From a virus: a stretch of 38,450 nucleotides of DNA. The notes beneath the pieces were generated by a model, which had not been told where the DNA came from, made no database searches, and saw only the letters and a program-made list of their open reading frames with translations. Below, in pieces: positions 28,926 through 32,354 of this stretch. Position 1 is the first letter of the stretch. Every line of letters starts with the position of its first letter. Location of the stretch: positions 1 through 38,450 of IMG/VR virus record IMGVR_UViG_3300025872_000134. One strand, written 5' to 3'. A program made the position numbers and the translations under genes.

Positions 28926-29114
28926 TTACATAGACGAAGCGGTATGGGCGGGACCGTAAGAACCAGCGACTAAGGCGCAATACATTCAAGCCTCCAAGTA
29001 ACTCCCCGCGTGGGTAACACAGTCTCGACAACTGTGGGTTATGAGGGGGAGAAGTTGCATTACGGCGCAGTTCTTCCTTGTCGGGGCATGGGTTCAACTC
29101 CCATATCTATGCAA
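28926..29114 (+). ncRNA. tRNA-like structure apparently interrupted by a folded insertion
   Basis: The 3' part has a perfect T arm (ATGGG-TTCAACT-CCCAT, 29088-29104) followed directly by ATCTATG. Its partner CATAGAC (six of seven pairs) lies at 28929-28935, at exactly the geometry of an acceptor stem. Next come a possible D stem (GCGG/CCGT), an AAGAAC/GTTCTT helix in the anticodon-stem position and a variable arm TTCC-TTGTC-GGGG. About 100 bases sit where the anticodon loop should be, and they fold: GTAAC-TCCCC/GGGGA-GAA-GTTGC outside, CACAGT-CTCGACA-ACTGTG inside. It is followed 5 bases later by tRNA-Thr. A local alternative is TTGCAT (29055)/ATGCAA (29109). No usable anticodon can be named. 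It may be an intron-bearing tRNA, a decayed tRNA, or a domain of a larger RNA. Confidence 0.4.
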
Positions 29115-29119
29115 CATTT

Positions 29120-29191
29120 GCCGCATTAGCACAACGGTTAGTGCAGTTGCCTTGTAAGCATCTGATGGGGGTTCAATTCCTCCATGCGGCT
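29120..29191 (+). tRNA. tRNA-Thr, anticodon TGT
   Basis: The acceptor stem is perfect (GCCGCAT/ATGCGGC). The D arm is GCAC-AACGGTTA-GTGC. The anticodon arm is GTTGC-CTTGTAA-GCATC with one T-T mismatch and TGT at 29153-29155, which reads ACA codons. The variable loop has four bases. The T arm is GGGGG-TTCAATT-CCTCC. The discriminator is T and CCA is not encoded, as usual in Actinobacteria and their phages. It is 72 bases long and lies in the same direction as the rightward genes. Confidence 0.9.
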
Positions 29192-29199
29192 CAAACATC

Positions 29200-29837: not shown

Positions 29838-29851
29838 CGAACAAACGTTCG
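29838..29851. promoter_or_regulatory. SOS (LexA) box 1
   Basis: CGAACAAACGTTCG matches the Gram-positive SOS box consensus CGAACRNRYGTTCG at every position. It lies in the gene-free region upstream of the rightward promoters. No LexA-like gene is in the window, so host LexA would be the binder. Confidence 0.65.
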
Positions 29852-29950: not shown

Positions 29951-29964
29951 CGAACGGGTGTTCG
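29951..29964. promoter_or_regulatory. SOS (LexA) box 2
   Basis: CGAACGGGTGTTCG fits CGAACRNRYGTTCG. It ends 9 bases upstream of the CRP-like box of the first rightward promoter (29974), so LexA and a CRP-type protein would lie on neighbouring DNA. Confidence 0.6.
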
Positions 29965-29973
29965 GTTTGGTGG

Positions 29974-30029
29974 TGTGACGAATGTCACATGGTGTGAATT
30001 TGCGTTAGGTATGCCTAATCTGCTATAGT
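29974..30029 (+). promoter_or_regulatory. Rightward promoter 1 with CRP-like box and spacer palindrome
   Basis: The box TGTGACGAATGTCACA (29974-29989) is followed after 10 bases by TTGCGT (30000-30005), an 18-base spacer and the extended -10 TGCTATAGT (TATAGT 30024-30029). The palindrome GTTAGGTATGCCTAA (30004-30018) occupies the spacer, where a bound repressor would block polymerase. The -35 is weak, which fits activator dependence. The 23 bases around the box are repeated exactly 99 bp downstream at promoter 2. Confidence 0.6.
30004..30018. promoter_or_regulatory. Palindromic repeat element, copy 1 (operator candidate)
   Basis: GTTAGGTATGCCTAA has TTAGG/CCTAA arms. Its reverse complement TTAGGCATACCTAAC matches copies 2 and 3 at 14 and 12 of 15 positions. 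It lies in the spacer of promoter 1. Confidence 0.55.
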
Positions 30030-30072: not shown

Positions 30073-30127
30073 TGTGACGAATGTCACATAGGAAAGGCTT
30101 GACATGGTGGGGGGTGTCTGGTAGAGT
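30073..30127 (+). promoter_or_regulatory. Rightward promoter 2 with CRP-like box
   Basis: The box TGTGACGAATGTCACA (30073-30088) is followed after 10 bases by a consensus TTGACA (30099-30104), then 17 bases, then TAGAGT (30122-30127). A transcript would start at about 30134, on or next to an ATG (30135) that opens a 19-codon frame. Confidence 0.7.
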
Positions 30128-30164: not shown

Positions 30165-30219
30165 AGTGACAAAGGTCACACGAAAAGGACTTGACATAGA
30201 GTCTGAACCGTGCTACATT
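30165..30219 (+). promoter_or_regulatory. Rightward promoter 3 with CRP-like box
   Basis: The box AGTGACAAAGGTCACA (30165-30180) is followed after 10 bases by TTGACA (30191-30196), 17 bases, then TACATT (30214-30219). It is the promoter nearest to the first rightward gene. Its leader of about 115 bases contains the parS sequence. Confidence 0.7.
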
Positions 30220-30308
30220 GTCACTACATAGAGAGAGGGACTAGACAGGAACTAGCGAGGAGGGAGAATAGCCCTCCACCCTCTCTACATAGAGAACGGG
30301 AAACAGAC

Positions 30309-30324
30309 TGTTTCACGTGAAACA
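30309..30324. other. parS site (ParB-binding sequence)
   Basis: TGTTTCACGTGAAACA is a perfect 16-bp palindrome and is identical to the widely conserved bacterial chromosomal parS consensus. It lies 19 bases before the first rightward start codon, in the leader of promoter 3. There is no parA or parB gene in the window, so host ParB would be the ligand. I saw no second exact copy when scanning the CACGTG occurrences. Confidence 0.85.
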
Positions 30325-30343
30325 ATAGAGAAAGGAACAGAGA

Positions 30344-30580
30344 GTGTCAGAAAAGACAAGGCGGATTACCAAAGAAGATTGGTACCTAATCGGGTGCGCA
30401 CTTCGGGAACAGTCCGAACTACTGATGAAGTGGGCGAGCAACCATGACTACTCAGAGGCAATGCGCCAAGGGTTCATGGATACGATGGATGCGAACCTTG
30501 ACCTACTCGCCTACGTGGTGAATACGAAAATGTCAGACAAGGACAGATACGGATTCTTCACCGAATTCGTGGATTGGTGA
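30344..30580 (+). CDS. First rightward gene, hypothetical helical protein, 78 aa
   Basis: The start is GTG with AGAAAGGA upstream. The product is all-helical by pattern (KEDWYLIGCALREQSELLMKWASN, then SEAMRQGFMDTMDANLDLLAYVV). It lies directly downstream of parS and three stacked promoters, so it should be among the earliest and strongest expressed genes. I recognise no family. Confidence 0.65.
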   Translation: MSEKTRRITKEDWYLIGCALREQSELLMKWASNHDYSEAMRQGFMDTMDANLDLLAYVVNTKMSDKDRYGFFTEFVDW

Positions 30581-30665: not shown

Positions 30666-30866
30666 ATGACACGTAAAGACTATGAGGCTATTGCCTCAGT
30701 AATCCGAAAGCACGTGGAAGGCTACGCCGACATGGGTAGCACAAAGGAGGCGGGGGACAAGCGTCGCGCGCTGGTCATGTTGGCTAGCGAACTGTCGCGG
30801 GAGTTCACGGCAGATAACCCACGGTTTCAGTCCGCCCGATTCATGAAGGCGTGCGGGGCTCTGTAA
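30666..30866 (+). CDS. Small conserved actinophage protein, 66 aa
   Basis: The product MTRKDYEAIASVIRKHVEGYADMG...LVMLASELSREFTADNPRFQSARFMKACG has the helical DYxxIAxVI...F..DNPRF...RF..AC pattern of a small protein frequent in early regions of actinophages and other phages. The ATG follows AGAAAGGGAATACAACTA. Function unknown. Its TAA stop forms the first bases of a repeated palindromic element. Confidence 0.75.
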   Translation: MTRKDYEAIASVIRKHVEGYADMGSTKEAGDKRRALVMLASELSREFTADNPRFQSARFMKACGAL

Positions 30867-30878
30867 GGCATACCTAAC
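30864..30878. promoter_or_regulatory. Palindromic repeat element, copy 2
   Basis: TAAGGCATACCTAAC begins with the stop codon of the 66-residue gene and precedes the next ribosome-binding site. It matches the reverse of copy 1 at 14 of 15 positions. Confidence 0.5.
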
Positions 30879-30898: not shown

Positions 30899-31093
30899 AT
30901 GACTACTTACTACAGAAAAACGTGGGACATAATTGGGTACACATTCCACGCCGACATCTACTGTGAACCGTGTGGGGACACGTTCCCCGACACCGACCCC
31001 GAAGGCAACGCTAAGCACCCTGTGTTCGCGGATGCGGAATTGGACGAAGACACCTATTGCGGAAAATGCGGGGAGCATTGGCAAGGCTGGTAA
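30899..31093 (+). CDS. Two-CxxC zinc-binding small protein, 64 aa
   Basis: MTTYYRKTWDIIGYTFHADIYCEPCGDTFPDTDPEGN...PVFADAELDEDTYCGKCGEHWQGW has CEPCG and CGKCG knuckles, a zinc-ribbon-type protein. WDIIGYTFxADIYC is an N-terminus I know from small phage proteins. The start has AAGAAAGGAAAACATA upstream. A nucleic-acid or host-protein partner is likely but unknown. Confidence 0.75.
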   Translation: MTTYYRKTWDIIGYTFHADIYCEPCGDTFPDTDPEGNAKHPVFADAELDEDTYCGKCGEHWQGW

Positions 31094-31105
31094 GGCGCAC
31101 CTAAC
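31091..31105. promoter_or_regulatory. Palindromic repeat element, copy 3
   Basis: TAAGGCGCACCTAAC again begins with the stop codon of the preceding gene and differs from copy 2 at two positions. It lies 6 bases before the CRP-like box of promoter 4. Confidence 0.5.
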
Positions 31106-31111
31106 AGAGAG

Positions 31112-31156
31112 TGTGACGCAGGTCACATTGACAAACAGTATCAACTGTGATACGGT
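31112..31156 (+). promoter_or_regulatory. Rightward promoter 4 with abutting CRP-like box
   Basis: The box TGTGACGCAGGTCACA (31112-31127) touches the TTGACA -35 (31128-31133). A 17-base spacer and TACGGT (31151-31156) follow. The box is one helical turn closer than in the other cassettes. It drives the 70-residue gene and probably the ArdA-like gene. Confidence 0.65.
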
Positions 31157-31502: not shown

Positions 31503-31817
31503 ATGGAAACAGTAACAGTACAAGAATGGGCGGACGAAAATGTCTACGACACGGATGCCTTCCTAATCTACCTAGAAAACGGACACGTCAAAGCGACGGA
31601 CGAAATGACAGAGAGCGACCTAGAAGATAAGAAGACAGAATTTGAGGACGCATACCAAGGATGCCACGACACGTTCGCAGAATTCGTAGAAGAAATGGTG
31701 CGAGAAATTGAGGTAATCCCCGACTGGGTATCTAATCACATTGACTGGGAATCGGTAGCACGTGACTGGAGTCATGACTACTGGGAACAGGATGGTCACG
31801 TATTCCGGAACCTCTAA
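31503..31817 (+). CDS. Short ArdA-like antirestriction protein
   Basis: This 104-residue acidic protein starts at 31503 after GAAGGGGAGAAACAAACA. Its second half (DTFAEFVEEMVREIEVIPDWVSNHIDWESVARDWSHDYWEQDGHVFRNL by position, about 56-104) has the FAEE...IP..........IDWE..ARDW..DY....GHVF pattern of the ArdA C-terminal domain. ArdA mimics B-form DNA and blocks type I restriction enzymes. Full ArdA is about 165 residues, so this is a reduced form with a short N-terminal domain. Its early position fits protection of incoming DNA. Confidence 0.7.
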   Translation: METVTVQEWADENVYDTDAFLIYLENGHVKATDEMTESDLEDKKTEFEDAYQGCHDTFAEFVEEMVREIEVIPDWVSNHIDWESVARDWSHDYWEQDGHVFRNL

Positions 31818-32285: not shown

Positions 32286-32299
32286 CGAACATACGTTCG
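32286..32299. promoter_or_regulatory. SOS (LexA) box 3
   Basis: CGAACATACGTTCG fits CGAACRNRYGTTCG perfectly and differs from box 1 at one position. It abuts the CRP-like box of promoter 5 (32300), so binding by the two regulators could interfere. Confidence 0.65.
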
Positions 32300-32354
32300 T
32301 ATGACAAATGTCACAGAAAAAGGTCTTGACAGATAACTACAAGTGTGTTACTGT
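32300..32354 (+). promoter_or_regulatory. Rightward promoter 5 with CRP-like box
   Basis: The box TATGACAAATGTCACA (32300-32315) is followed after 10 bases by TTGACA (32326-32331), a 17-base spacer and TACTGT (32349-32354). The leader GCCAAGAGAAAGGGAAACA is shared with promoter 6. Confidence 0.7.

Follow-up and report, generated by a model that had tools for sequence, protein, structure and literature searches.

An exact chromosomal parS palindrome in the early leader of a virus without parAB: possible recruitment of host ParB

Almost all bacteria have ParB, a protein known chiefly for its part in chromosome segregation. The chromosomal ParB of P. aeruginosa can also repress genes lying behind the intergenic sites parS3 and parS4; however, in most of the bacteria examined, loss of ParB alters only a few genes close to parS (PMC7022226). 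KorB represses transcription as a sliding clamp (PMC11790492), and VirB removes H-NS silencing (PMC10770331). We found no report, in the open-access literature, of phages exploiting host chromosomal ParB through a parS of their own, which is not proof of novelty. Here we describe such a site in the early leader of a virus and trace it across related viral records.

The parS site and its leader

The window analysed here is the entire IMG/VR record IMGVR_UViG_3300025872_000134, 38,450 bp long. It has a podovirus-like gene set (terminase, portal, major head protein, glycosyltransferases, RecE, single-strand annealing protein, SSB and WhiB) and several small genes without known function. The WhiB gene suggests an actinobacterium as host. 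Among cultured phages the nearest relatives are Streptomyces Beephvirinae by capsid (about 45% identity) and the lake phage DSL-LC01 by glycosyltransferase; parS is missing in the latter and in three Streptomyces Beephvirinae genomes. Megablast against cultured phages gave no match for the right arm of the window, nor for the contigs L086 and L373 considered below.

At 30309-30324 lies the palindrome TGTTTCACGTGAAACA, for which no strand can be given. All 16 of its bases agree with the parS consensus TGTTNCACGTGNAACA, and TGTTTCACGTGAAACA itself has been used as the consensus parS (PMC7383237). It occurs once in the window, with no second match even when 3 mismatches are allowed, and base composition predicts 7.7e-6 exact matches per window by chance. 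The site is not beside a chromosomal oriC, the record being viral with head, terminase and portal genes.

In 5' to 3' order the leader consists of a TTGACA box (30191-30196), a 17-bp spacer, TACATT (30214-30219), a structured stretch, parS, AGAAAGGA and a GTG codon. The two boxes (30191-30219, plus strand) form, by consensus reading only, a good predicted promoter of the sigma70 type. The structured stretch (30232-30286, plus strand) has a predicted multi-branch fold, and the folding z-score of the leader at 30222-30345 is -4.3. The GTG, at 30344, follows parS after 19 bases and opens the first early gene (30344-30580, plus strand, 78 aa), which has no family match. The sequence-only reading had named this palindrome a chromosomal parS, placed it 19 bases before the first rightward gene and noted that parAB is lacking; all three statements held, and parS lies 3' of a predicted promoter as well.

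A close relative, L133, shares the structured leader but not the site. The window reads ATAGAGAA-CGGGAAACAGACTGTTTCACGTGAAACA-ATAGAGAAAGG, where L133 has ATAGAGAAAGG alone. The unit CGGGAAACAGACTGTTTCACGTGAAACA, which contains parS and is flanked by two copies of ATAGAGAA, occupies 30297-30324 with approximate boundaries, and parS in the window thus looks like a modular insert. The leader RNA keeps its loop AGAATAG in both viruses, and its stem differs (GGAGGG/CCCTCC in the window, TCGGG/CCCGA in L133).

Other features were observed nearby. Just 3' of the first early gene, 30583-30646 matches a hammerhead type II ribozyme barely above threshold (37.6 bits); a stronger one is found in the relative L134 (8419-8480, 57.6 bits). 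The early rightward operon encodes an ArdA-like antirestriction protein (31503-31817, 39.4 bits). In the divergent region a tRNA-Thr(TGT) at 29120-29192 is preceded by a second tRNA-like stretch, for which ARAGORN made no call (both within 29060-29192).

Could the virus supply the partition proteins itself? Profile searches of the record for ParB_N (PF02195), HTH_ParB (PF17762) and ParA/AAA_31 (PF13614) were empty, with positive controls in known genomes, so that neither the ParA nor the ParB gene of a ParABS phage-plasmid is present on the element. Tyrosine (PF00589) and serine (PF00239) integrases were likewise not found in the record, and the relatives tested gave no ParB_N, HTH_ParB, ParA or integrase either. 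A pattern-based scan of 84,980 bacterial and archaeal genomes returned no close terminase relative; the prophage candidates in that collection were weak, distant terminases of Acinetobacter and Rickettsiales and were set aside. The record thus has neither the integrase nor the family prophages in host genomes that mark a temperate phage. Since partition and integration genes are lacking and the pattern-based scan found no close terminase, a lytic life appears to be the simplest reading.

Recurrence in relatives and in other viral contigs

Terminase relatives amounted to 441 stretches in viral contigs, the records compared being fragments of unknown completeness. In those with terminases 74-85% identical, parS recurs in the early region. 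Exact or variant sites lie 5' of the terminase in L121, L122, L124, L126-L130, L134, L139, L142, L154, L192, L193, L196 and L197, and L215 and L252 likewise carry a variant. Counting sites within one mismatch among relatives with at least 2.5 kb of upstream sequence, parS is present in 16 of 45, spread over about four positions in the terminase tree; genomes of this family carry 1-3 sites each. The early regions hold 12 distinct parS sites in 320 kb against none in 543 kb of late regions, shuffled-palindrome controls giving none in either; sites were counted as distinct by sequence context, and those of related phages are only partly independent. Variation is chiefly T/C at position 5, paired with the matching change at position 12, which gives TGTTCCACGTGGAACA (L193, L196, L215, L252), a form listed for Pseudomonas parS and used by Pseudomonas ParB (PMC7022226). 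A few second sites in relatives differ by one other change.

The gene behind the site changes from virus to virus. A homologue of the first gene of the window occurs only in L121, a record of the same species, and in other relatives parS precedes different, non-homologous genes. It is therefore the element that appears to be conserved, not the gene behind it. This recurrence before unrelated genes suggests that a host segregation protein has been borrowed to control or organise early genes. Conservation across relatives, which the sequence-only reading had proposed as support for function, was thus found in diverged genomes but is incomplete. The refuting condition of that reading, absence in close relatives, gave a mixed outcome: L133 and roughly two of every three relatives that could be evaluated lack the site, as does most of the wider terminase family. 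From this absence parS would be a modular add-on and not a core feature of the family.

In most relatives parS has a TTGACA/-10 promoter on its 5' side and the ribosome-binding site on its 3' side, and behind the TTGACA promoter the distance from parS to the start codon is 18-24 nt in most leaders. Several leaders have in addition a half-site, GTGRAACA. In L193, L196, L197, L215 and L252 it precedes the full parS by 20-23 bp and stands at the expected transcription start; in L129 it precedes parS by 41 bp. Half-sites are present in 6 of 17 leaders, about four of them independent, where 0.33 would be expected; some ParBs are known to bind half-sites, but such binding was not seen with those of S. 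coelicolor or C. glutamicum (PMC7022226). The exceptions to this arrangement are a further parS upstream of a promoter in L127-L130, parS at mid-operon gene junctions in L122 and L126, and another context in L139 and L142. In many relatives the site stands in a leader, as would be expected of a KorB- or VirB-like operator, yet other intergenic positions occur too, and because the position relative to the promoter varies, a general loading site would fit better than a classical operator.

The site is not confined to this family. Exact parS gave at least 120 matches in viral contigs, and a control palindrome of the same composition, CTTGYTACGTARCAAG, was found in 27 viral contigs in total; parS is strongly over-represented. 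Judging from the 70 matches of a control with reversed hexamer, parS sites in viral contigs would number a few thousand. By crude gene calling 40 of 113 parS sites (one per contig) are intergenic, against 1 of 26 control palindromes and 11% of random positions. A rule that parS always lies downstream of the promoter was dropped, sites just upstream of promoters being common in viral contigs as well. Where a viral parS does lie 3' of TTGACA, a -10 box stands at the correct spacing in 51 of 128 cases, compared with 3 of 70 for the reversed hexamer. The contigs span 27-72% GC, and ParB_N was detected in 2 of 50, 2 of 15 and 0 of 26 of those tested, one match in each of the first two sets exceeding the curated cut-off.

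Some of these contigs carry arrays: five sites each in L216 and L510, nine in L373 and twelve in L086. L216 and L373 have WhiB and a lysozyme-like gene in common with the window; in these two contigs the sites come after a stop codon and, for the most part, ahead of an extended -10 box, which places them over the -35 region. Those of L086 lie at gene junctions, near start codons. L237, L219 and L331 are also among the contigs with consensus parS arrays at gene junctions or promoters. No ParB_N match above the cut-off was found in L373, L510, L216, L237, L086, L219 or L331, the record of L331 giving one below threshold.

Host ParB and early transcription: the alternatives weighed

What would a lone parS do in such a leader? 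If the host has a canonical ParB, it is close to certain that this protein would bind TGTTTCACGTGAAACA. The reading that we favour, with roughly even confidence, is that parS serves as a loading site for host ParB, used in trans and placed to act on early transcription. The virus, lacking segregation genes, would rely on the chromosomal ParB of its host. From ParB biochemistry, this protein would load at the phage parS as a CTP clamp soon after entry and slide over the adjacent early operon. Sitting between the promoter and the first gene, it could alter early transcription in either direction: by attenuation or as a roadblock, like P. aeruginosa ParB at parS3/parS4 or KorB, or by anti-silencing of DNA coated with nucleoid proteins, like the ParB homologue VirB. 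A copy-number timer is also conceivable, in which the growing number of phage DNA copies spreads ParB ever more thinly over its sites and so releases the early genes. An AT-rich early region was considered as a ground for anti-silencing but was not seen (50.3% GC early, 52.0% late), and adds no support.

Early transcription is favoured because parS is confined to early regions (12 sites against none), mostly in leaders, and shares them with operator-like palindromes. It is also supported by the absence of viral ParB, HTH_ParB, ParA and integrase, the ParB-tolerated main variation, the half-sites, the L133 leader without the insert, the promoter-placed sites of the ParB-less, WhiB-sharing contigs L216 and L373 and the -10 spacing in the survey. 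It is weakened by the variable position relative to promoters, by the lack of parS in Beephvirinae and in most family members, by the small effect that loss of ParB usually has on genes near parS and by the failure of S. coelicolor and C. glutamicum ParB to show half-site binding. With so variable a position, parS could also act more generally by loading ParB, as in positioning or anti-silencing.

Three palindromes share the early regions with parS. GTGAC-N4-GTCAC has 63 distinct early copies in the family, CGAAC-N4-GTTCG 43 and TTAGG-N4-CCTAA 32; none of the three has a late copy, and shuffled controls gave none in either region. The first, which we take to resemble a CRP/GlxR box, stands exactly 11 bp upstream of the -35 in 37 of the 42 boxes with TTGACA nearby in family early regions; 53 of 78 early promoters have the box with at most 1 mismatch. 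In the window it occurs at 29974-29989, 30073-30088, 30166-30179, 31112-31127 and 32300-32315; the copy at 30166-30179, GTGACAAAGGTCAC (no strand), lies 11 bp upstream of the -35 box of the parS leader. The second, presumably a LexA/SOS-like box, is at 29838-29851, 29951-29964 and 32286-32299, and the third, presumably similar to part of a DtxR/IdeR operator, is at 30004-30019 with degenerate copies at 30863-30878 and 31090-31105. Domain searches found no viral CRP-type HTH or LexA DNA-binding domain. Since CRP-, LexA- and DtxR-like palindromes occupy the same early regions, parS looks like one of several host-regulator inputs. More tentatively, the early control regions may form an array of docking sites for host ParB and for CRP-, LexA- and DtxR-type regulators, so that early promoters would directly read the segregation, energy, DNA-damage and metal status of the host, with parS as the ParB input; ParB-less phages with 5-12 parS sites would then use host ParB as a genome-wide regulator.

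Positioning is the alternative that survives best, although we regard it as unlikely. Here host ParB on the phage parS would tie the phage genome to the ori/pole complex of the host (ParA, SMC, polar anchors), which would help to place its replication or to maintain it in a carrier state. ParB should be recruited by any parS, and this reading agrees with the variable, often intergenic position with respect to promoters and with the arrays of several sites that other phages have at gene junctions; the parS mimics by which SGI1 exploits the parABS of IncC plasmids provide a precedent (PMC10954446). Restriction to early regions and half-sites at the expected transcription start would be left unexplained, however, and long-term carriage looks unlikely for a virus that lacks ParA/ParB and an integrase and whose terminase has no close relative among the genomes scanned. 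For the same reasons plasmid-like maintenance, one of three roles proposed in the sequence-only reading, found little support; titration of ParB by 1-3 sites is weak alone, and early-gene control through host ParB fits the anatomy best.

Another reading, which we consider rather unlikely, is that the palindrome shares its sequence with parS by coincidence and serves as operator for some other protein, either a small regulator of the virus or a further factor of the host. Several unknown small genes are encoded, and some phages (L216, L373) have sites placed like operators. But the palindrome agrees with the ParB consensus throughout its 16 positions, most of the variation is of a kind that ParB tolerates, and contigs of such different GC content would be hard to serve with one viral regulator.

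The leader position and its precise spacing would be needless for a decoy, by which amplified phage DNA titrates host ParB and disturbs chromosome segregation. Sites do multiply with phage copies, and some contigs have 5-12 of them; with just 1-3 per genome in this family we consider this role improbable. Still less probable is a function of the sequence in RNA, as a short hairpin beside the ribosome-binding site. The site does lie within a structured leader and could form a 6-bp stem with an ACGU loop, but variation is essentially limited to one stem pair, with the loop bases conserved, several sites stand 5' of a promoter, and the predicted fold pairs the left arm with a different element; the hairpin was set aside on the conservation of the loop. 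Chance, for which nothing speaks beyond the size of sequence collections and which the sequence-only reading had also thought improbable, has a negligible claim given the expectation per window, the recurrence in diverged relatives (which had already refuted it), the early restriction and the rarity of the control palindrome.

Comparison with known systems

If lytic phages recruit ParB by cis sites alone, then ParB would be a host factor for infection and, for the phage, a ready-made device for transcription or positioning. Pipelines that use parS as a marker of chromosomal origins in metagenomes would also have to reckon with viral contigs that carry many such sites.

In mycobacteriophage L5, stoperators are regulatory sites repeated at gene junctions, like the parS arrays described here, but they are asymmetric 13-bp sites bound by the repressor of the phage itself. 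The phage-plasmid partition systems (P1, N15, parABS mycobacteriophages) also include a phage-borne ParB site, and these phages encode ParA/ParB whereas the virus of the window encodes neither. The site itself is the same as bacterial chromosomal parS of ParABS, with an identical 16-bp consensus and the Pseudomonas-type TGTTCCACGTGGAACA in relatives; it differs in lying in an early leader and not near oriC, without parAB on the element. SGI1 is similar in that a mobile element bears only the site and exploits the ParB of another replicon; however, the site in SGI1 imitates that of a plasmid and serves the stability of SGI1 itself, while the phage has the chromosomal consensus in early leaders and is apparently lytic (PMC10954446). 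Similar in proposed action are the RK2 KorB operators (PMC11790492) and virS/VirB (PMC10770331), where a ParB-family CTP clamp at a near-promoter site controls transcription, as we propose for the phage parS. KorB and VirB are dedicated regulators, whereas the clamp predicted to act on the phage would be the chromosomal segregation protein of its host.
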